The position numbers and the translations under genes were made by a program. A stretch of 34,698 bases of DNA from Deltaproteobacteria bacterium (GTDB lineage: Bacteria; Desulfobacterota; Desulfobacteria; Desulfobacterales; SURF-15). Positions within the stretch are counted from its first letter, which is position 1; each line of letters begins with the position of its first letter. This document shows, one piece after another, positions 2,860 through 33,141 of this stretch. The notes beneath the pieces are model-generated. The model made no database searches. It was not told the origin of the DNA and saw nothing but the letters and a program-made list of their open reading frames with translations. The stretch covers positions 1-34,698 of the forward strand of contig DUZK01000012.1 of NCBI GenBank assembly GCA_013349495.1, in the 5' to 3' direction.

Positions 2860-3726
2860 ATGATGAACCCGATTAAATTTTTTAAATATCACGGACTCGG
2901 AAACGACTATATTGTCCTGAATCCTGAAGATTTAAACACCACGCTTGCCCCGGAGCAGATTACACGGATTTGTCATCGTAATTTCGGAATCGGTTCCGAC
3001 GGCATCCTGCTCGGCCCTCTTGCAGATAAAGATCATGGTACGGATTTCGCTCTGAAAATTTATAACACTGATGGAAGTGAGGCTGAAAAAAGCGGAAACG
3101 GGCTTCGCATCTTTTCAAGATACCTATGGGACAAGGGTCTTGTTGATTCTAAGCCTTTTACCATTCATACCCTAGGGGGCATCGTGACCTCTCAGATATT
3201 GAACGGCGGCAAGGAAATTTCTGTTGGAATGGGGCATGTCAGTTTTCAGAGCAAAGACGTACCGGTCGTGGGACCGAACCGAGAAGTGATCGATGAAAAC
3301 ATTGTCATCGATGGTGTCTCATATACCTATTGTGCCGCTACCATCGGAAACCCCCACTGTGTCATCGTAAAAGATGAGATATCAAAGGAAGAAGCCTGCA
3401 AGTATGGCCCGAACATTGAAATTGACAGCCTTTTTCCGAACCGAACGAATGTACAGTTCATGAGAATATTAGATCGAAATAATATTCAGATCGAGATTTG
3501 GGAACGGGGTGTAGGGTATACACTCGCTTCAGGAAGCAGTGCCAGCGCATCGGCCGCCGTGGCATTCAAACTCGGACACATCGATTCTCATGTTACGGTC
3601 CACATGCCGGGAGGAAACATGGAAATTGAGATCGCTGAAGACTTTTCAATACAGATGACCGGCGCCGTGACCCGGGTCTGCGAAGGGCTTATAGACCCTG
3701 AGATATTCGATATTGAAAGAGCTTGA
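2860..3726 (+). CDS. DapF-like (diaminopimelate epimerase fold) protein with both catalytic Cys replaced by Ser
   Basis: 288 aa; FFKYHGLGNDYIVL, YNTDGSEAEKSGNGLR, GNPHCVIV and IEIWERGVGYTLASGSSASASAAV match the DapF motif series. The two Cys positions (usually ...CGNGxR and ...ACGTG) read Ser here. Confidence 0.9.
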   Translation: MMNPIKFFKYHGLGNDYIVLNPEDLNTTLAPEQITRICHRNFGIGSDGILLGPLADKDHGTDFALKIYNTDGSEAEKSGNGLRIFSRYLWDKGLVDSKPFTIHTLGGIVTSQILNGGKEISVGMGHVSFQSKDVPVVGPNREVIDENIVIDGVSYTYCAATIGNPHCVIVKDEISKEEACKYGPNIEIDSLFPNRTNVQFMRILDRNNIQIEIWERGVGYTLASGSSASASAAVAFKLGHIDSHVTVHMPGGNMEIEIAEDFSIQMTGAVTRVCEGLIDPEIFDIERA

Positions 3727-3762: not shown

Positions 3763-4962
3763 GTGTCTAATCATTCGGAAAGGATTGAATCCCATATGAC
3801 GAACATCCCTTTGGCTCGGAACTTATCAACGGTTGCTCCTTCCCGCATTCGAGAAATTGCAGATATCGCTTTTACCATGGACGGTGTGTTCAAACTCCAT
3901 TTTGGGGAATCCGATATGCCGACGCCGGCATACATTAAAGAGGCTGCCTTTCAAGCCATGAATGAAGGTTACACCTTTTATAGTGAAAATGCAGGTTTGC
4001 TCAGCCTTCGGAAAGCCATTGCCAGAAAATATTCCGACCTCCACGATGTAAAGGTAGATCCGGAAACTGAAATAGTAATAACGGCATCCGGTGTTCAGGC
4101 ATTAAACGTATCCATCCGCTGTGTCATCGATCCCGGAGACGAAGCCATCATTTTATCTCCGAACTGGCCCAATGCCACCTCCATTGTGAGCCTTTACGGC
4201 GGCCGCCCCATTGAGATCCCCTATACCAGCAATCGCAGTCGATTCGAGATCGACTTCGATGCTATAGCGTCCGCTGTTACGCCGAAAACCAGGCTTCTTG
4301 TCTATACTTCGCCTTCCAATCCCCTGGGATGGGTCGCAAATCCTTCCGAACAGCAATCGTTGTTGGATTTCTGCCGAAAGCACCGCCTCTGGTTGTTGGC
4401 CGATGAAGTTTACGAACGTTTCTACTATGCCGGTCCGGTTGCCCCTTCGATTCTTAAGATCTGCTCACGAGATGATGCCGTCATTGTGGTTCATTCATTT
4501 TCCAAAAGTTATTGCATGACCGGTTGGCGGCTGGGCTGGATGGTTGCCCGGTCGGACTTGATACATAAAGCATCACAGCTTAATGAATTCATTGTTTCAC
4601 ATGCACCGTCCATGATTCAGCGGGCGGGTGAAATTGCACTGGAAAAGGGAGAAAAAGATATTGAATCCATGAAGGATTCGATTCAAGAACGAGTCAATTT
4701 CTGCTTTAAGGCCTTGTCTTCCATCGAATCGGTTTCGCTGCCGCAACCGGAGGGGGCATTTTACCTGTTTCCCAGAATTGAAGGAGTTACCGACTCATTT
4801 TCTTTTGCGCTCTCTTTGCTGAAAGAAACAAAAGTTTCTCTTGCTCCCGGTGTTGCATTCGGAAACGGGGGTGAAGGGGCTGTACGGATTTGCTGCGCTG
4901 CAGACCTATCGGTTCTTGAACCGGCGATGGAGCGGTTCGTTAAGTTTCTTAAAAAGGGTTAA
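3763..4962 (+). CDS. PLP-dependent class I/II aminotransferase
   Basis: 399 aa; SPSNPLGWV, LLADEVYERFYY, VHSFSKSYCMTGWRLGWMVA (PLP-Lys motif). A downstream start (MTNIPLARN at 3796) is also possible. Confidence 0.9.
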   Translation: MSNHSERIESHMTNIPLARNLSTVAPSRIREIADIAFTMDGVFKLHFGESDMPTPAYIKEAAFQAMNEGYTFYSENAGLLSLRKAIARKYSDLHDVKVDPETEIVITASGVQALNVSIRCVIDPGDEAIILSPNWPNATSIVSLYGGRPIEIPYTSNRSRFEIDFDAIASAVTPKTRLLVYTSPSNPLGWVANPSEQQSLLDFCRKHRLWLLADEVYERFYYAGPVAPSILKICSRDDAVIVVHSFSKSYCMTGWRLGWMVARSDLIHKASQLNEFIVSHAPSMIQRAGEIALEKGEKDIESMKDSIQERVNFCFKALSSIESVSLPQPEGAFYLFPRIEGVTDSFSFALSLLKETKVSLAPGVAFGNGGEGAVRICCAADLSVLEPAMERFVKFLKKG

Positions 4963-5733: not shown

Positions 5734-6007
5734 CCGGGATGAGAATAAAAATCACCCGTATGCATCTCCGCTTCTGGCTGAAAATCTCTCGAATCTTCCG
5801 CCTGCCCTTATTATCGTCGCCGAGTTCGATGTGCTGAGAGATGAATGCCTGGCTTATGCCGACCGGTTGAAAAAAGCCGGTATTCCTGTTACATGTCTTA
5901 TATATGACGATATGATTCATGCGTTTCTCAATCTTAGCGGCGCGGTCGACCGTAGCCGTGAAGCTATCGAAGATATGTGCGACAAATTGCGGAAAGTGTT
6001 CAGTTGA
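5732..6007 (+). pseudogene. C-terminal remnant of an alpha/beta-hydrolase (HSL/alpha-beta hydrolase-3 family)
   Basis: Reading frame ending in TGA 6005-6007: DRDENKNHPYASPLLAENLSNLPPALIIVAEFDVLRDECLAYADRLKKAGIPVTCLIYDDMIHAFLNL...; has the Asp (EFDVLRDE) and His (MIHAF) regions but no GxSxG nucleophile half. Confidence 0.7.
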
Positions 6008-7028: not shown

Positions 7029-7094
7029 GAAATGGTTTTAAAAAATAACAGATAAAAGCAATTTTCCATCCTTAACTGCAAGAAGGAGTTGGGT

Positions 7095-7685
7095 ATGCTG
7101 GATGATCATGTCATTTACGAGGTGGTAAGCCCTGTTGGAGAGTATGTCGGTGGGGTCCGCCCCATCGCTCCGCGTCTTTCTGACCTGAATGGGAAAACGG
7201 TGGGTGAGGTCTGGAACGGTATGTTTCGGGGAGATGCGACCTTTCCTATCCTTCGTGAGTTGCTAAAGAAGCGCTACCCGGATATAAAATTCGTGCCGTA
7301 TACCGAATTTCCGTCTTTCCTGCCCATGGTAAATATAGACGCTGCTGCCATGGCGCTGCGAGAGACGCTATTGCGGTCCGGCTGCGATGCCGTCATCTCC
7401 GGTGTCGGCGGCTGAGGTACCTGTACGCCCGCAGTTATGCGGGCAAGTCTGGTGGCTGAGGAGCTTGGTATCCCCTCAGCATCGATTGTTGTTACCATGT
7501 TTCTAGAGCTGTCCCATTTCATCGCGTCGTCCTACGGAGTCCCTGACGCCAGGGTTGTTGAATGGTCCGGTGCTATTGATGACTTTAGCCAGGTTCAACT
7601 ATCAGAAATGGCTGAGAGAACCGTAATCGATCACATTATCAAGGCATTAACGAAAGGGGTTTCAGGAGGCGTTCTGGATGTTTGA
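7095..7685 (+). CDS. UGSC/GrdB-like selenoprotein; in-frame TGA at 7413-7415 read as selenocysteine
   Basis: ORFs 7089..7415 and 7437..7685 are the same frame separated only by TGA. Fused protein reads ...RSGCDAVISGVGGUGTCTPAVMRASLVAEELGIPSASIVVTMFLELSHFIASSYGVPDARVVEWSG.... The UGTCT context resembles GrdB/UGSC selenoproteins. AAGGAG at 7083-7088 precedes ATG 7095. Confidence 0.85.
7427..7444 (+). promoter_or_regulatory. Candidate bacterial SECIS element
   Basis: 7-bp perfect stem GCCCGCA / TGCGGGC with GTTA loop (7434-7437). The apical loop begins with G 18 nt after the last base of the UGA, within the usual bSECIS geometry. Confidence 0.75.
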
Positions 7686-13131: not shown

Positions 13132-15267
13132 TCAGTCAGCGAGGCAACGAAATCCGAGGGTATTTGATGTGAAATCGGTTGGAAATCTGAATCGCGAAGC
13201 AAGCTGGATGTTTTCTTCGGATACCCAGCTACCGCCCTTTGCGATGTGGTAATCAAAATTGTTTCGAGAACCGCTTATCGGGTCACATTTCTCTGATGTC
13301 CATTCCAATGTATTTCCCAACAGATCGGCAATACCCATTTTGTTGACCCCATCCGGAGAATGGTCAACCGGCACGGTATCGGCAATTTCGCTGGTTTCAG
13401 TATTACAGAGTCCATCTTTCCAATCGTCTCCCCAAGGGAATCGATAACCCTTATCTGCCCTTGCAGCAGCCTCCCATTCAGCCTCAGTCGGCAGACGTTT
13501 TCCCACCCAAGAGGCGAAGGCCATGGCATCTAAGAGACTCACCTGAACCACCGGATGATTCCGCTTCTGATGCAATGTGCTGCCGGGCCCGGTGGGCTGA
13601 TACCAGTAAGCGCCTTTGACTTCTTTCCAACTGTGAGCCGAATTCCATGCGTACCGGTATTGGCCGGTGTTTTCGTCCTTAATTTTCCGATATCTTCCCT
13701 CATAGACGACACCGAAGCCTTTTTTCTCGGCTGTGGTGGTGTAGCCGGTTCTTTCCACGAAAACTTCGAAAAGCGCGTTAATAACGGGATATTTTCCCAT
13801 AAAAAAATCGTGCACCTGAATCTGCTGTTCAGGCAATTCTCCAGGGGTTGGGACCTTGCTTCCGATAGTATATGCACCACTCGGTATAAGTAGGAACTGA
13901 TTAAAATGCCGCTCCATTGCACCCAAATATCGATCGAAACGCTCTGCCAGGATTCTCTTACGTTCGGTTTCCGAGAGCGCATCAAGGCCAAACTCATCTT
14001 CATCGATATCGTATTTACCTTCAAAATCAGCACTTGCAGCCTCTTTGCCCGGCTCCTCAACAACAGCTACACCGTCATCCTCAACCTCCTCTATTTCATC
14101 ATCGGGTACTTCGACTTCCGCTATGCCATCTTCATCGTCAGCCATAACATCCAGCACTTCCACTACATCTGAATCCGATTCTGAATCATCACCCTCCCCT
14201 TCTTCATCATCTAATCCGGAAACTTCTTCAAGGTCGTCGAGTTCATCGACCTCTTCAAGATCCTCATCATCCAGTTGCTCTTCTTCGGGCTCCTCCAGTT
14301 CATCATCTTCCACTTCTTCTAGTTCATCCAGTTCGGATAAGTCTTCATCCTTTACAGATTCCGCATCCTCGTCTGATTCATCTTTTTCTTCATCTTCTAT
14401 GACAACATCGACGACCTCCACAATTTCAGACGCCTCCTCCGGTTCTTCGGATTCTATATATTCGGTTTCTTCTTTCCGGTCGTCTGTCGGAATGACTTCC
14501 TCTATGTCCTCTTCATCGATTGTGTCGAGTTTGGAAAAATCTTCCGCACTGAGGGAATCGATACCTTCATGGGGTGCAGTTCTCGGTACGATCTGCGCAT
14601 CATCTGAAGTTTTAGCTGGCGGCGTCCAACAGGCTTTGTCCGCCAGTTTATCAAGCAATGCCCTGACCGTGTCATGCGCTATTTGACTATCCGGCATATT
14701 TGTAATGAGATTGTCAAACATCCCCAAGACCTCAGCGGCCTGTTCAATGGGAAGCGGTTTCTTTGAAGACAGCGCATCCAATATAGATCCGACAAATTCC
14801 AAAGAGTGGTCATCCGGCACCTTGTTTAAAAATTCACCGAACAATCGCGTCACCTCTGATATGCTGTCCAGCGTAATAGGTTCATTTGAAGCGAGTGCGT
14901 TCGTAAACGATTTAAGAAAAGCATCCTTGGCCTCATCACACATGCTGAACACATTGGAAGGATTGATGATGATGCCTTCAGGGTTTTTTCCATCCCTGAA
15001 AAGCTTCATGAGATCCGAATTGATTGAAGATCTGATGCTGTTAAGGTTTTTCCTTTTGGATTTCAACTGGTCGGTATCGGTTACATCATCCCACACCAAA
15101 GGGACCAGTTCGTCCGGATCGATGGTCCGGACGGCTCGGAGGGATTGGTCCGAATCATAGAATTGTCTGATGGCGTAGACCAACCGATACTTGAGAGATC
15201 GGGAATTCCGGTATTCCAGTTCGGATACGGCTTTCTCAACACCGGATATGGATATGTTGTCGCTCAA
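13132..15267 (-). CDS. FGE/SUMF1 (formylglycine-generating-enzyme-like) domain protein with long acidic linker
   Basis: 711 aa; C-terminal FLLIPSGAYTIGSK...GKRLPTEAEWEAAARADKGYRFPWGDDW...LGNTLEWTSEKC...AKGGSWVSEENIQLASRFRFPTDFTSNTLGFRCLAD. A roughly 190-residue D/E-rich segment lies between the N-terminal helical region and the FGE-like domain. Confidence 0.88.
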   Translation of the reverse strand: MSDNISISGVEKAVSELEYRNSRSLKYRLVYAIRQFYDSDQSLRAVRTIDPDELVPLVWDDVTDTDQLKSKRKNLNSIRSSINSDLMKLFRDGKNPEGIIINPSNVFSMCDEAKDAFLKSFTNALASNEPITLDSISEVTRLFGEFLNKVPDDHSLEFVGSILDALSSKKPLPIEQAAEVLGMFDNLITNMPDSQIAHDTVRALLDKLADKACWTPPAKTSDDAQIVPRTAPHEGIDSLSAEDFSKLDTIDEEDIEEVIPTDDRKEETEYIESEEPEEASEIVEVVDVVIEDEEKDESDEDAESVKDEDLSELDELEEVEDDELEEPEEEQLDDEDLEEVDELDDLEEVSGLDDEEGEGDDSESDSDVVEVLDVMADDEDGIAEVEVPDDEIEEVEDDGVAVVEEPGKEAASADFEGKYDIDEDEFGLDALSETERKRILAERFDRYLGAMERHFNQFLLIPSGAYTIGSKVPTPGELPEQQIQVHDFFMGKYPVINALFEVFVERTGYTTTAEKKGFGVVYEGRYRKIKDENTGQYRYAWNSAHSWKEVKGAYWYQPTGPGSTLHQKRNHPVVQVSLLDAMAFASWVGKRLPTEAEWEAAARADKGYRFPWGDDWKDGLCNTETSEIADTVPVDHSPDGVNKMGIADLLGNTLEWTSEKCDPISGSRNNFDYHIAKGGSWVSEENIQLASRFRFPTDFTSNTLGFRCLAD

Positions 15268-26717: not shown

Positions 26718-27353
26718 ATGCGATCGGAATTAACCGCGAAACAGCAGCAGGTGCTGAATTATCTGGAGCACGCGATTCGTCACGCCGGAGTACCTCCGAG
26801 CCTGCGGCAGGCGGCCCTGGATTTAGGCGTAAGCCATGCTGCGGTGGCCCAAACCCTCAGAATGCTGGAAGAAAAAGGCTATGTGAAGCGGGAGGGCCGC
26901 TACAGCCGTACCATTTATCTGCTAAACCGGGCTCGCGAAACATCTGCTTTACAGCGCTGGCGTGAAGTCCCCATCATTGGACGTATAACAGCCGGGCTTC
27001 CCATGTATGCCCAAGAAGAATGGGATGGAAGCATTGTAATCGATGCCGATGTTTACCGGGGTCAAAACATCTTTGCCCTCCAGGTCAGAGGAGACTCCAT
27101 GAAGGATACCGGTATCCTGAACGGGGATCTGGCGATCTGCGAACCTCGTCAGTACGCCCGGAATGGAGAAATTATCGCAGCGCTTATCAGGGATGAAGAA
27201 GCCACGGTCAAACGGTTTTTTCTGCATAACGATCATATCGAACTGCGCCCGGAAAATACCGAATACTCCTCCGTGCGATACCCATTCAGCGAAGTATTGA
27301 TTCAGGGCAAAGTGATCGGCATTCAGCGGGGACCTGAAGGGTTCGACCGATAA
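26718..27353 (+). CDS. lexA: LexA repressor
   Basis: 211 aa; N-terminal wHTH SLRQAALDLGVSHAAVAQTLRMLEEKGYVKR, A-G cleavage site in RITAGLPMYA, catalytic GDSMKDTGILNGDL and EATVKRFF. Confidence 0.92.
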   Translation: MRSELTAKQQQVLNYLEHAIRHAGVPPSLRQAALDLGVSHAAVAQTLRMLEEKGYVKREGRYSRTIYLLNRARETSALQRWREVPIIGRITAGLPMYAQEEWDGSIVIDADVYRGQNIFALQVRGDSMKDTGILNGDLAICEPRQYARNGEIIAALIRDEEATVKRFFLHNDHIELRPENTEYSSVRYPFSEVLIQGKVIGIQRGPEGFDR

Positions 27354-27447
27354 TGCACTGAATCTGATGGATCAACTGGCTGACAAGAGGATGCTGCATC
27401 CTCAGGGCCAAGCCAGAAGCAGCCGGCTTTGCCGATAAATAGTTAAT

Positions 27448-27571
27448 GAGTGCCTAAAGTGAACTAAAGTGAGCTAAAATTAAGGAATTCTGCCATTTAC
27501 ATATCAAAAAGACCGCGCGACAGCGTGTACCTAAACTTTAGGCACTTTAGATCACTTGAAACTTTAGTCAC
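27448..27571. repeat. Intergenic inverted array of CTAAAGTG-type units upstream of the imuB-like gene
   Basis: AGTGCCTAAAGTGAACTAAAGTGAGCTAAAAT versus CTAAACTTTAGGCACTTTAGATCACTTGAAACTTTAGTCAC. Confidence 0.7.
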
Positions 27572-27583
27572 TGATAACGCATA

Positions 27584-28771
27584 GTGGGCATGGCGTTTAT
27601 GGAACGTTCAATCATCCATATCAATGTGGCCGATTTTGCCGTGGCCGTGGAACGGATGGTGGATTCCCGTTTAAAAACCCGCCCGGTGATCATCGCCCCA
27701 AAAGGCACGGCACGGGCGGTGGTTTATGACATGAGCGAGGAGGCATATCAGATCGGTGTCCGAAAAGGGATGGCGTTGAGAAAAGCCGCCCGTCTCTGCC
27801 GTGGTGTCAACATTCTTCCGCCGCACCCCGACCGGTATGAAGGGGCGATGCGCGCCCTGCTGAAGCAGGCGCTGCCCTATTCACCCTTGATCGAACCCGG
27901 GGACCGGGACGGACATCTGTTCGTGGATGTTACCGGCACCAACCGATTGTTCGGCCCGCCCATTGATATTGCCTGGCGGCTCCGGAAGCGGATCAAAACA
28001 GATCTGAGCTTCGATCCCACCTGGTCGGTTGCCTCGAACAAGCTGATCGCCAAGGTGGCTACCCGTTTGGTGAAACCCACCGGAGAGTACATTGTCGGAC
28101 AAGGAGAAGAAGAAAAGTTTTTGGCCCCTCTGCCGATCCGATTGATTCCCGGTATCGACCGGAATGATTTGCTCCAGTTCGAAGCGTTCAACCTGACCCG
28201 GGTTTACCAAGTCTCGGCATTGAGCCTTGAACACCTGCAGGTTCCTTTTGGAAACCGGGCGCCGTTTCTTTACGAAGCGGTTCGCGGAATCGACCCTTCT
28301 CCCGTACTGCCGGTGCGGCAGAAAAAACCGACGGTACTTTTGGATCACGATTTCGGGGATGATACCAACGATGTGGAGCTTTTGAACCGGGCCCTGTACG
28401 GCCTGGTGGAACGAGGCGGTAAAAACCTGCGGGACCAACGGCTAGCAGCCCGCAGTCTCTGCATTGTTCTCGACTATTCAGACGGCATCCGCCATGTGCG
28501 CCGTGCTGTGGCCCAACCGGCCACATCCAATGATTTAATGCTTTTTGAGGCGGCCCGGCAAACACTCATGCGGGCCTGGACGCGCCGGATCCGGATTCGG
28601 CACATAGGTTTGATCTTTGACAAACTGATATTTCCACCGGCTCAACTGGAGTTGTTCCCTGAAAACCGGAGAAAGACTGAAAAACGCACCGGCTTGATCC
28701 AGGCGGTGGATAAAATTCGGGACCGTTTCGGTAAAGACGCCATCCACATGGGACGGATGCTAGCCGCGTAG
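27584..28771 (+). CDS. ImuB-like Y-family polymerase-fold protein, apparently lacking catalytic acidic residues
   Basis: 395 aa (ATG 27590 or 27599 also possible); IIHINVADFAVAVE in place of HxDxDxFxAxVE, GDRDGHLFVDVTGTNRLFG in place of SIDEAYLDVTG, QLELF clamp-binding-like motif near the C-terminus. Confidence 0.85.
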   Translation: MGMAFMERSIIHINVADFAVAVERMVDSRLKTRPVIIAPKGTARAVVYDMSEEAYQIGVRKGMALRKAARLCRGVNILPPHPDRYEGAMRALLKQALPYSPLIEPGDRDGHLFVDVTGTNRLFGPPIDIAWRLRKRIKTDLSFDPTWSVASNKLIAKVATRLVKPTGEYIVGQGEEEKFLAPLPIRLIPGIDRNDLLQFEAFNLTRVYQVSALSLEHLQVPFGNRAPFLYEAVRGIDPSPVLPVRQKKPTVLLDHDFGDDTNDVELLNRALYGLVERGGKNLRDQRLAARSLCIVLDYSDGIRHVRRAVAQPATSNDLMLFEAARQTLMRAWTRRIRIRHIGLIFDKLIFPPAQLELFPENRRKTEKRTGLIQAVDKIRDRFGKDAIHMGRMLAA

Positions 28772-29905
28772 ATAGGACGGCACATATTCCCGGGCGTGTT
28801 GGAACATGGCCAGAATGTTTTCAATCGGCACATCCGGCTGAATGTTGTGGACGGCTCCCACCACATATCCGCCCCCTTCCCCCATTTCCTCTACACACCG
28901 CTCAACTGCCTGTTTGACATCTTCAACGCTTCCCCGGGGAAGAATGTGCTGGGTATCGATACCGCCCCAGAACACCATGCGGTCACCGAATTGCCGCTTC
29001 AGTTCGACCGGATCCATGCCGGCGGCCGTCACCTGAATCGGGTGAATGGCATCGACTCCCATATCAATCATATCTTCCATGATACTGACCACGGATCCGC
29101 AGGTATGGTAGAGTATTTTTGCAGGCGTAAAATCGCGCACCAATCGGAAGTATTTCGTATGCCGGGGTTTTACATATTTCAAATAAGCATCATGACTGAT
29201 TTGAAGCCCGGTCTGAGCGCCGATATCATCTCCGGTAATCACCACATCCACCTCCCGGCCCACCGCTTTCAGGATACGCCGAACCATTTGAAGGGAAATT
29301 TCAAGAACCGCATCACAGATGGCGTCCAACACCTTTGCGTTCAGTGCGATGTCGCAATACCAGTCCTCAAACCCTCTAATATACTGGCTGACATGGATAA
29401 AGGGAGGGGGAAGTGCCAAAACGGCAGCGGCGTCTGTGTTTTCACGAATCCATTGGATACGCTCTTTGAGACCGTTTACGATGCCGGGATCATCCGGGTC
29501 CGGCCAGGGGTACTGATGCACATCGTCCAGGGTGACGGCTCCCGAAAGGGGCGATCCCTTCAGATCGTAATAATAACTGTGGGACGGTTTTATCCGTTCG
29601 ACATTCCAGAAATCGCGATAGCCATCCGGTTCCAGTTCCTGATCCGCCCCTTTGATGGGAGCGCCCAGAAAAACCCCTCGGGTATCGATATCGAGTGCCC
29701 GGAGAATCCTCTCCTCCACCCTGACCACCCGCATCATCCGATTGCAGAGCGCATCTTCGGCATCGATTCCGAAATGTTGTTTCAGTTTTGCGTATCCCTC
29801 AACCACGATGCTGCTGTCGACGGTGCCCCCCAGATCGATGGGAACGCTATCCGGTTGTTGGTGAGAAAGTGCAGCAAGCAATCGGTCCCTGTGCGTCATC
29901 ATCAT
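28760..29905 (-). CDS. Uroporphyrinogen decarboxylase (URO-D/MtaA-like) family protein
   Basis: 381 aa; MTHRDRLLAALSHQQPDSVPIDLGGT, FTPAKILYHTCGSVVSIMEDMIDMGVDAIHPIQ, FWGGIDTQHILPRG. Confidence 0.9.
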   Translation of the reverse strand: MMMTHRDRLLAALSHQQPDSVPIDLGGTVDSSIVVEGYAKLKQHFGIDAEDALCNRMMRVVRVEERILRALDIDTRGVFLGAPIKGADQELEPDGYRDFWNVERIKPSHSYYYDLKGSPLSGAVTLDDVHQYPWPDPDDPGIVNGLKERIQWIRENTDAAAVLALPPPFIHVSQYIRGFEDWYCDIALNAKVLDAICDAVLEISLQMVRRILKAVGREVDVVITGDDIGAQTGLQISHDAYLKYVKPRHTKYFRLVRDFTPAKILYHTCGSVVSIMEDMIDMGVDAIHPIQVTAAGMDPVELKRQFGDRMVFWGGIDTQHILPRGSVEDVKQAVERCVEEMGEGGGYVVGAVHNIQPDVPIENILAMFQHAREYVPSYLRG

Positions 29906-30049
29906 CGCCTCCTATTCTAAGCAGATTCATATAAAGCGGTTCATAAATATATAGAAGAATTTTGAAAGAAGTCAACCGAGTTATGCAGTTCACTTTAGTA
30001 ACCATATATTCGATGCATGAAATATATCCTTAGACAACGTCAAGGTTTC

Positions 30050-30106
30050 GGGTGTCAGGTGTCAGGGAGGACCGCTACTTGAAAACCGAACCCTGACACC
30101 TGACAC
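30050..30106. repeat. Hairpin-forming GTGTCAGG inverted repeat upstream of dnaE2
   Basis: GTGTCAGGTGTCAGGG (30052-30067) is the exact reverse complement of CCCTGACACCTGACAC (30091-30106), 23-nt loop. Confidence 0.85.
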
Positions 30107-30138
30107 TTGAACACTAAACTCTTTTAAGAAAGCAAATT

Positions 30139-33100
30139 ATGATCCCTTTAACCGTTCGATCCCACTACTCCCTCATGTGGGGAACCGCGGACGTCAAGAC
30201 ACTCTGTAGAACCGCAAAGCGTCTCGGTTATCAGCGTCTCGCACTGACGGACACGGATAATCTCTACGGGCTGTGGCCCTTTCTCGCTGCCTGCCGCCGG
30301 GAGGGCATTACCCCCATTGTGGGGGCGGAAGTAACCGATCCGGTTCGAAGTGTTCGGGCCGTATGTCTAGTGGAAAACGAAACCGGGTATCGCAATCTCT
30401 GCCGATTGCTCACCCGTCGCCACACAGACAATACCTTCAACCTCAAGACCATCCTGCCCGCATTTGCGGAGGGGTTGAAAATACTTACCCAAAGTCCCGA
30501 TCTTCTAAAGTTTTGTTACGATGCCGGCTTATCCATTGCCGCCGCCATGCCCCGGAAACCCGCACCATCAACCCATCGTCTCTGCAGAACCGCCAAGCTT
30601 TTGGGAATTCCTTTGGTTGCAACTCCCGGCAGTTTCTTTCTTCATCCCGGCGATATCGCGGTACATCGACTGTTGCGCGCCATCGATCAAAACACGGTTC
30701 TCTCTCGACTGGCGGCCAAAACGGTCGCCCCGGCTGACGCTTATCTTGGGGCCCCCGCCGAATACGCCGATCGGTTTGTCGTTTGTCCTGAAGCATTAAA
30801 TGCCTCTCATACTTTCGCTGAATCCCTTACTTTCACCGGTCCGGATTTCGGTATCGTGCTCCCGCCATGGCGTAATGGAAATGGTCGAGTCGCCGCCGAG
30901 TGTCTCCGGCAAGCAGCTTATGATGGGGCAAAAGAGCGGTATGGGGAGGAGCTTCCGGAATCGGTGGTGGAGCGGTTGGAGCAGGAATTACGAATCATTA
31001 CGGATATGGGATTTGCTGCATACTTTCTCATCGTTTCCGATATCGTCAAACGAAGTCCGCGTACCTGCGGAAGAGGATCGGCTGTTGCTTCTCTTGTAGC
31101 CTATTCCATGAAAATCACCAATGTCTGTCCCGTCAAACACAATCTCTATTTCGAGCGGTTTTTAAATCCGGGGCGAACCGATCCTCCGGATATTGATGTA
31201 GACTTCGCATGGGATGAACGAAACGGGGTCTTGGAATCGGTTTTGACCCAATACGCCGGCCATGCCGCACTGGTGTCGAATCATGTCTGCTTTCAACCAC
31301 GCATGGCGGTCCGGGAGACAGCAAAGGTCTACGGCCTCACCGATGCGGAAATCGGTAAAGTCACTCGAAGACTGCCCTGGTACTGGCGGTTTGAAGAAAC
31401 TTCAGACCTGATAACGTGGTTTTCTCAACGGCCTGAAGCAAAAACTTTGGAATTTCCCCGCCCCTGGCCGGAACTGATGCAATATGCCCATCGCATCCTC
31501 GGCACTCCCCGATACTTATCCGTGCATCCGGGCGGCATCGTCATCACCCCGGATCCCATCGATACCTATGTGCCGGTTGAAAAGGCCCCCAAAGGCGTAC
31601 CGATAATTCAATGGGAAAAGGACGGTGCCGAAGAAGCCGGGTTGGTGAAAATCGATTTGCTGGGCAATCGGAGCCTCGGTGTTGTCCGGGATGCATTGAA
31701 AAACATGCGGAAGAACCATATCCCATTCGATGAGTCCCTATGGGAGCCGGAAGACGATTTTATCACTCAAAATGCCATCGCCCAGGGTCGGACCATGGGG
31801 TGTTTTTATATCGAAAGCCCGGCCATGCGATTGCTTCAGCAAAAATCAGGTGTGGGAGATTTCGAACACCTGGTCATCCACAGCAGCATCATTCGCCCGG
31901 CAGCCAACGATTTTATTCAGGAATATCTTCGCCGTCTCCACGGCGGCGAATGGGACCCCATTCATCCCCTGCTCACCGATGTGCTGGATGAAACATTCGG
32001 AATCATGGTCTATCAGGAAGACGTTTCCCGGGCTGCTGTATCCGTTGCCGGTTTTACCCATACTGAGGCAGATCGACTCCGCAAAATCCTATCGAAAAAA
32101 GACAGAGAATATCATCTTCAGGATTTCCATCAGAGGTTTATCGAAGGGGCCGGGGCAAAAGGTCTATCGGAGCAAAAGATTGCCGAAATTTGGAACATGA
32201 TGATGAGTTTCAACGGGTATTCCTTTTGCAAGCCTCACAGCGCTTCATATGCACGGGTCTCTTTCCAGGCGGCATATCTAAAAACTCACTTCCCCGCTGA
32301 ATTCATCGCTGCGGTGATCAGCAATCAGGGCGGTTTTTACAGTCCATTTGCCTATGTTTCAGAAGCCAAACGGATGGGGCTTGAGGTTCTGCCGCCGGAT
32401 ATTGAAAAGAGCGATATCCGGTGGACGGGAAACGGAAATTCCATCCGAGTGGGCCTACTGGCCGTTAAAGATCTGGGGGATGAAATCCGGAAAAGGATCG
32501 TCTCGCAACGTCGGCAGGCCCCATTCCAAAGTTTTCGGGATTTTCTCAACCGGATCCTTCCGGATGAACACGAGGCGAAAGCCCTGATTCATAGCGGAGC
32601 TTTGGATAGATTCGCACCCGACAACAGCCGGACCGGTCTTTTGTGGGAACTTGCCCGGTGGCGGCACACGAAATCCTCAAAAACCGTATCCAAAAATCTT
32701 TTCTCAACAGATCTCGCCGACACCATCCCGCTTCTTCCTCCTGAAACCGAGCGAAACCGTCTTCGGCGGGAGTTTGACGTGCTCGGCTTTCTGTGTGATC
32801 GCCATCCCATGGCATTATATCAGGAATTCGTCAGGCAGGCCCGGGCAGTGAAAGCCGTGGATCTTCCCCTCCTCATCGGGAAACAGATCCGTTTGGCGGC
32901 ATGGATCATCACCGGCAAAGTCGTGCATACCAAGCATGGGGAGTTGATGGAATTCCTGACATTTGAAGATGAAACCGGCATTGTGGAAACCACTTTTTTC
33001 CCTGATGCCTATCGCCGCTTCTGCCACATGATCGACCGGAACCGGCCGTACCTGCTGACGGGAAAAGTGGAGCAGAACTGGGGGGCAGTCACCCTGACGG

Positions 33101-33141
33101 TGGAAAAGGTGGAAAAAATCAGAGCCTCAATGTCAAGTTAA
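30139..33141 (+). CDS. dnaE2: Error-prone DNA polymerase III alpha (DnaE2/ImuC)
   Basis: 1000 aa; PHP-type N-terminus, GRGSAVASLVAYSMKITNVCP, PPDIDVDFAWDERNGV catalytic Asp motif, SVHPGGIVITP, KIDLLGNRSLGVV, GYSFCKPHSASYARVSFQAAYLK. Confidence 0.93.
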   Translation: MIPLTVRSHYSLMWGTADVKTLCRTAKRLGYQRLALTDTDNLYGLWPFLAACRREGITPIVGAEVTDPVRSVRAVCLVENETGYRNLCRLLTRRHTDNTFNLKTILPAFAEGLKILTQSPDLLKFCYDAGLSIAAAMPRKPAPSTHRLCRTAKLLGIPLVATPGSFFLHPGDIAVHRLLRAIDQNTVLSRLAAKTVAPADAYLGAPAEYADRFVVCPEALNASHTFAESLTFTGPDFGIVLPPWRNGNGRVAAECLRQAAYDGAKERYGEELPESVVERLEQELRIITDMGFAAYFLIVSDIVKRSPRTCGRGSAVASLVAYSMKITNVCPVKHNLYFERFLNPGRTDPPDIDVDFAWDERNGVLESVLTQYAGHAALVSNHVCFQPRMAVRETAKVYGLTDAEIGKVTRRLPWYWRFEETSDLITWFSQRPEAKTLEFPRPWPELMQYAHRILGTPRYLSVHPGGIVITPDPIDTYVPVEKAPKGVPIIQWEKDGAEEAGLVKIDLLGNRSLGVVRDALKNMRKNHIPFDESLWEPEDDFITQNAIAQGRTMGCFYIESPAMRLLQQKSGVGDFEHLVIHSSIIRPAANDFIQEYLRRLHGGEWDPIHPLLTDVLDETFGIMVYQEDVSRAAVSVAGFTHTEADRLRKILSKKDREYHLQDFHQRFIEGAGAKGLSEQKIAEIWNMMMSFNGYSFCKPHSASYARVSFQAAYLKTHFPAEFIAAVISNQGGFYSPFAYVSEAKRMGLEVLPPDIEKSDIRWTGNGNSIRVGLLAVKDLGDEIRKRIVSQRRQAPFQSFRDFLNRILPDEHEAKALIHSGALDRFAPDNSRTGLLWELARWRHTKSSKTVSKNLFSTDLADTIPLLPPETERNRLRREFDVLGFLCDRHPMALYQEFVRQARAVKAVDLPLLIGKQIRLAAWIITGKVVHTKHGELMEFLTFEDETGIVETTFFPDAYRRFCHMIDRNRPYLLTGKVEQNWGAVTLTVEKVEKIRASMSS

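Follow-up and report, generated by a model that had tools for sequence, protein, structure and literature searches.

A DapF subfamily with serine at both catalytic cysteine positions as a probable thiol-free diaminopimelate epimerase

Can an enzyme of the DapF fold still epimerize its substrate when both catalytic cysteines are serines? Diaminopimelate (DAP) epimerase belongs to an essential pathway, and according to the textbook view two cysteines are needed to invert one carbon of DAP. For cofactor-independent amino-acid racemases the thiolate/thiol pair is held to be indispensable, and cysteine-to-serine mutants serve as inactive controls. The question is raised by a dapF-family gene on contig DUZK01000012.1 of a deltaproteobacterial assembly (GCA_013349495.1; Desulfobacterales, SURF-15), of which we analyzed positions 1 to 34,698, called the window in the following. 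The main positions of the gene are collected in Table 1. We consider it likely that this gene encodes an LL-/meso-DAP epimerase (lysine, peptidoglycan) and that it represents an ancient thiol-free subfamily of DapF.

The open reading frame (ORF) is uninterrupted and contains the motifs HGLGNDY, YNTDGSEA, GNPHC and ERGVG. These motifs as well as the two serine codons had been pointed out in the original prediction, and our translation reproduced them at exactly the same positions. The TIGR00652 DapF profile matches residues 5-277 with 248.9 bits, that is above the equivalog cut-off of 114.65, so that the protein is a member of the DapF family by sequence. The Pfam family DAP_epimerase matches with 192 bits and is the only Pfam match at E <= 0.001; thus the protein is assigned neither to PhzF, for which the fold match has about 14% identity, nor to the proline racemase superfamily with its serine-type hydroxyproline dehydratases, where the similarity is confined to the fold. 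By sequence the closest solved relatives are the DapF proteins of A. thaliana and Anabaena. The AlphaFold2 model (mean predicted local distance difference test score 93.5) has the two-domain DapF fold, with helices 79-91 and 225-237 starting right after Ser78 and Ser224, and the top Foldseek matches are DapF structures (template modelling (TM) score 0.90 for P. aeruginosa DapF, 8qzy). Relative to DapF (TIGR00652; Anabaena 9mro, A. thaliana 3ejx, P. aeruginosa 8qzy) the fold is common, with TM scores of about 0.8-0.9 and 33-38% identity, and the serines stand exactly at the cysteine sites. The differences are the exchange of both cysteines, a lysine before the first of them and the marks Tyr220, Ser226, Ser227 and Tyr17; moreover, the PROSITE DapF signature, which demands the first cysteine (pattern quoted in PMC8225329), does not match the protein. 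A scan of the regions flanking the gene for promoters and terminators gave no clear excess compared with shuffled sequences.

The exchange is a property of a whole clade. A species-level scan of 85,462 genomes for relatives of the window protein yielded 64 sequences with about 48-63% identity, from Desulfobacterales, Verrucomicrobiota, KSB1, Cyanobacteriota, Bacillota, Gammaproteobacteria, SAR324, Chloroflexota, Calditrichota, Omnitrophota, Spirochaetes and others. Within the class of the window (292 genomes) 50 further genomes have a match at 52-66% identity, and the remaining matches are below 40% and clearly separate. The genomes surveyed are mostly metagenome assemblies. All 117 close relatives that could be read at both columns (95 distinct aligned sequences and 22 from Opitutaceae, together about 10 phyla) have the Ser/Ser pair and not the Cys/Cys pair expected of a DAP epimerase. 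Of 135 distinct sequences aligned, 95 are Ser/Ser and 40 Cys/Cys, and none has a mixed Ser/Cys pair. All readable relatives carry the motifs EA(E/K)KSGNG, the first two letters of which differ in two loci, and YT(L/M)ASG(S/T)S. When the two catalytic columns were masked, the Ser/Ser sequences still formed one side of a branch of the tree with a support of 100 (SH-like approximate likelihood ratio test, SH-aLRT). Ser78 is encoded by AGY in 100 and by TCN in 20 cases, Ser224 by AGC in 7 and by TCN in 112; since both serine codon families occur at both positions, serine has been maintained through synonymous replacements. The original prediction regarded a sequencing error as unlikely, proposed an alignment of the two columns in homologues and named a lone, decaying copy as the finding that would speak against it. 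The intact reading frame and the fixation of Ser/Ser across about 10 phyla exclude both the error and the decaying copy. Judged by alignment and tree, Ser/Ser DapF is a large, ancient and monophyletic lineage spread over many bacterial phyla.

Is the binding site for DAP retained in this lineage? In Anabaena DapF the proximal amine is bound by Asn13, the distal end by Asn66, Asn164, Asn197, Glu215 and Arg216, and the proximal carboxylate by amides and by the amide and hydroxyl of Thr226 (PMC12039745). All side-chain ligands of DAP, namely Asn15, Asn69, Asn164, Asn197, Glu215 and Arg216 in the numbering of the window protein, are present there and in 94 of the 95 Ser/Ser sequences; the remaining sequence is cut at its N-terminus. 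In addition, the alignment reveals residues specific for the clade: Tyr10, Tyr17, Lys77, Ile84, Tyr220, Ser226 and Ser227. We also looked for another cysteine that could have taken over catalysis. Cys38 is invariant, but 38 of the 40 Cys/Cys sequences have a cysteine there as well; Cys167 occurs in many Ser/Ser sequences (90 of 95) without being fixed, and the Ser/Ser alignment contains no new fixed cysteine specific for the clade.

The genomic distribution suggests that the Ser/Ser protein serves as the cell's DapF. It is the only TIGR00652 match over the cut-off in 41 of the 50 class relatives, among them the single-contig genomes G032, G265 and G269, and likewise in most of the Verrucomicrobiota, KSB1 and SAR324 genomes tested, which were reached via their loci. 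In the class sample the presence of the two types is anti-associated (Fisher p ~4e-24, kinship ignored and the window genome counted as two-copy). Because this value ignores kinship, three local cases weigh more. Firstly, exactly one DapF is found in 55 of 61 Opitutaceae genomes, and the 29 loci read comprise 22 Ser/Ser and 7 Cys/Cys genes (in G389, a genome with two matches, one of them was read); Ser/Ser and Cys/Cys DapF thus alternate as single copy within one family. Secondly, Cys/Cys carriers have the conserved order argH, lipoprotein gene, lysA, dapF(CC), folK, the gene names in the lysA-folK stretch being read from the sequences and from lysA and DapF matches. The succession lysA, dapF(CC), folK is found in G044, where an aminotransferase gene lies between dapF and folK, and in G207 and G223. 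In the Ser/Ser-only genomes G265 and G269 lysA is directly followed by folK, the flanking genes are retained and the Cys/Cys dapF is cleanly absent; G223 and G269 belong to one genus, and G223 retains both copies. Such a loss from the lysA-folK operon is the pattern expected if the Cys/Cys enzyme was no longer needed because of the Ser/Ser enzyme. Thirdly, in KSB1, Calditrichota, Verrucomicrobiota and unassigned metagenome-assembled genomes (MAGs) the Ser/Ser gene is linked to dap genes, either in the order dapB-dapA-dapF(SS) or dapF(SS)-dapL-lysA, or by lying close to dapA and dapB.

The pathway context points in the same direction. In 30 Ser/Ser genomes no match over the cut-off was obtained for meso-DAP dehydrogenase (Ddh), which could bypass epimerization, whereas all 30 contain a LysA-family protein and 22 a DapL over the cut-off. 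With LysA kept and no Ddh, it is not evident how these genomes would reach meso-DAP other than by epimerization. A sole DapF in this company, the dap operons and the replacement of the Cys/Cys type agree with a DapF of the lysine/DAP pathway. For Opitutaceae, GC/MS has detected a compound reported simply as DAP in Opitutus terrae and Lacunisphaera, and a DapL pathway including a DapF is annotated there (PMC5303756). A special LysA partner of the Ser/Ser type was considered and rejected: LysA-like proteins just under the TIGR01048 cut-off occur in most Ser/Ser genomes but also in many Cys/Cys-only genomes. Similarly, a frequent 410-residue neighbour in relatives of the window, first taken for DapL, turned out to be MoeA-like.

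Some further loci of Ser/Ser dapF genes may be mentioned here. In a gammaproteobacterial MAG (L092, 2904-8088, plus strand) the gene lies within a leucine-biosynthesis run upstream of leuB, with flanking ORFs that look by eye like leuC, leuD and asd, and in several Opitutia it is located after leuA. In the two-copy genome of Sporomusa malonica (L084, 5874-6800, plus strand) a protein directly downstream of the Ser/Ser DapF looks by eye like PhzF, a distant member of the DapF fold.

The window genome (92.7% complete, 334 contigs) itself contains one other TIGR00652 match (G000:C118:6687-7874, minus strand; L172). The original prediction had suggested looking for a canonical Cys/Cys dapF, and this 396-residue protein with insertions indeed has the Cys/Cys pair. 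It is, however, very divergent (end branch 6.45) and has lost two DAP-binding asparagines by the exchanges N69E and N164E in window numbering. Its sequence suggests that it is probably another racemase rather than a DapF, possibly an undescribed amino-acid racemase.

Three options had been left by the original prediction: the protein could be a neofunctionalized isomerase, it could bind a ligand, or it could be an enzyme using Ser/Ser chemistry of an unusual kind. Because the DAP-binding residues are kept, dap clusters occur in several phyla and the Ser/Ser type has replaced Cys/Cys DapF as sole copy, we favour the last option, with the original substrate; the other two are less favoured. DAP would be bound in a closed two-domain cleft as in DapF. 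One serine, activated by the helix dipole together with Lys77, Tyr220, Ser226-Ser227 and Tyr17, would act as an alkoxide-like base and remove the alpha proton, and the serine across from it, or a water or neighbouring residue positioned by that second serine, would give a proton back on the other face. Such direct Ser/Ser acid-base catalysis aided by the clade-specific shell appears to us the most likely mechanism because there are precedents in the proline racemase superfamily, despite the nearly dead cysteine-to-serine mutants considered below. In that superfamily a 4-hydroxyproline epimerase has a Ser/Cys pair and a trans-3-hydroxyproline dehydratase a Ser/Thr pair, the serine being positioned by an asparagine (PMC4113996). 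The overall fold is common and serine can there replace the first cysteine as base for the alpha proton, but the identity of the fold matches is only about 12-16%, the substrates are different and in the described cases serine is never found on both sides. Our claim on substrate and pathway is stronger than that on the residue-level mechanism.

Several points weigh against a Ser/Ser DAP epimerase. To our knowledge no epimerase of the DapF fold with serine on both sides has been characterized, and no enzyme of the Ser/Ser clade appears to have been assayed. Proton transfer by a Ser/Ser pair is unexpected given the near-dead cysteine-to-serine mutants of characterized relatives: the PddB mutants have <0.1% activity, the same is stated for M. 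tuberculosis DapF (PMC8225329), and the activity of HisR is greatly reduced (PMC11602996). Cysteine is thought to be favoured over serine as it is more acidic and easier to desolvate (PMC8142540). On the genomic side, the co-occurrence counts are phylogenetically non-independent, dap genes are linked at a minority of loci only, and both types coexist in 9 of the 50 class relatives and in the Cyanobacteria and Bacillota found; in such genomes the Ser/Ser copy may have another role.

HisR, CntK, PddB and O-ureidoserine racemase share the DapF fold and cofactor-independent racemization, but they are Cys/Cys enzymes for other amino acids, and HisR and PddB lose activity when cysteine is changed to serine. 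The Cys/Thr aspartate/glutamate racemases EcL-DER and MMP0739 are also cofactor-independent and have naturally lost one catalytic thiol (PMC8142540), but they belong to another structural group, only one cysteine is replaced, and they are reported or predicted to be unidirectional.

The main rival to direct Ser/Ser catalysis keeps DAP epimerization but assigns the role of the bases to Lys77 and/or a tyrosine (Tyr220, Tyr17), the serines only holding the carboxylate or a water. It draws on the fact that Lys77 and Tyr17 are fixed and clade-specific, and Tyr220 nearly so, the change being concurrent with that from cysteine to serine. The residue preceding the first cysteine in DapF, however, makes no direct hydrogen bond to inhibitor or substrate (PMC12039745), and in the model the serines retain the exact cysteine positions before the helices; we regard this variant as unlikely. 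Still less probable is that a DAP-like amino acid is bound but undergoes another reaction, for instance a one-base elimination or dehydration like that of the Ser/Thr trans-3-hydroxyproline dehydratases, while a different, unrecognized enzyme epimerizes DAP. Loss of cysteine does accompany the switch to dehydratases in the proline racemase superfamily (PMC4113996; PMC8142540) and mutated racemases perform eliminations (PMC8142540), but the distal-DAP site is kept in full, the Ser/Ser type supplants Cys/Cys DapF as sole copy in a family and, via operon loss, in a genus, and the Ddh bypass is missing. That the protein is a catalytically dead DAP-binding or regulatory pseudoenzyme, as the lack of both residues essential in characterized homologues could suggest, is highly improbable, as many LysA-keeping genomes with only this DapF would be left without meso-DAP and the new active-site residues form a precise set that is fixed and not drifting.

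Table 1. Positions in the window of the Ser/Ser dapF gene, of its active-site residues and of the following gene
Feature	Coordinates	Strand	Basis
dapF-family gene, Ser/Ser type, 288 aa	2860..3726	+	ORF translation; TIGR00652/Pfam matches; AlphaFold2 model
Asn15, corresponding to Anabaena Asn13, proximal amine ligand	2902..2904	+	alignment, PMC12039745
Asn69, distal-DAP ligand	3064..3066	+	alignment, PMC12039745
Lys77, invariant in the Ser/Ser clade; Met/Ala/Asn/Ser in the Cys/Cys sequences examined; may tune Ser78	3088..3090	+	alignment
Ser78 (AGC) in EAEKSGNGLR, first catalytic Cys position, just before predicted helix 79-91	3091..3093	+	translation, model
Asn164, distal-DAP carboxylate ligand	3349..3351	+	alignment, PMC12039745
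Asn197, distal-DAP carboxylate ligand	3448..3450	+	alignment, PMC12039745
Glu215-Arg216, distal-DAP amine and carboxylate ligands, L-centre recognition	3502..3507	+	alignment, PMC12039745
Tyr220, clade-specific, four residues before Ser224; one exception, Asn in L213	3517..3519	+	alignment
Ser224 (TCA) in TLASGSSAS, second catalytic Cys position, just before predicted helix 225-237	3529..3531	+	translation, model
Ser226-Ser227, in place of Thr-Gly of Cys/Cys DapF; 226 corresponds to the carboxylate-binding Thr of Anabaena	3535..3540	+	alignment, PMC12039745
PLP (pyridoxal phosphate) aminotransferase, subfamily PRK06108, next gene after dapF(SS); not DapL model	3763..4962	+	profile match

The aminotransferase gene following dapF was considered as part of the same system, but the linkage is not conserved and we regard it as a mere neighbour; a partial DapL-like match of the window genome lies on a separate contig (C153). 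Elsewhere in the window, the frame at 7089-7682 (plus strand) is a selenoprotein candidate of the UGSC family when the TGA at 7413-7415 is read as selenocysteine (Sec, U), giving GVGGUGTCTPAV; its score against NF041046 is 66 bits, below the cut-off of 125, and its motif is U-G-T-C and not U-G-S-C. At 26718-33141 (plus strand) LexA is followed on the same strand by a polymerase of the Y family (DNA polymerase IV/ImuB-like) and one of the DnaE type (error-prone-like), an arrangement that looks like a lexA-imuB-dnaE2 mutagenesis cassette. Around positions ~5740-6000 (plus strand), after a GDPD gene, a frame without full-length ORF resembles by eye the C-terminal end of an alpha/beta hydrolase, possibly a decayed esterase. 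The minus strand at 13132-15267 encodes a 711-residue protein whose middle part is very acidic and of low complexity and whose C-terminal domain is EgtB/SenA-like (formylglycine-enzyme-type), and the serine-rich ORF 14045-14686 on the opposite strand is its antisense shadow.

Since Ser/Ser proteins score above the DapF cut-off, they can be named diaminopimelate epimerase in databases, and the type stays hidden there; we found no description of a Ser-type DapF in the open-licence PMC literature. We lean, by a little, towards the fuller reading in which the Ser/Ser enzyme has repeatedly displaced the Cys/Cys enzyme and would be affected neither by oxidation nor by thiol-directed DapF inhibitors. 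If true, a widespread natural Ser/Ser DAP epimerase would mean that this fold is capable of its chemistry without sulfur and would single out the surrounding residues that enable sulfur-free catalysis. Such an enzyme would also be redox-insensitive and offer a natural way around thiol-directed inhibitors of DapF.
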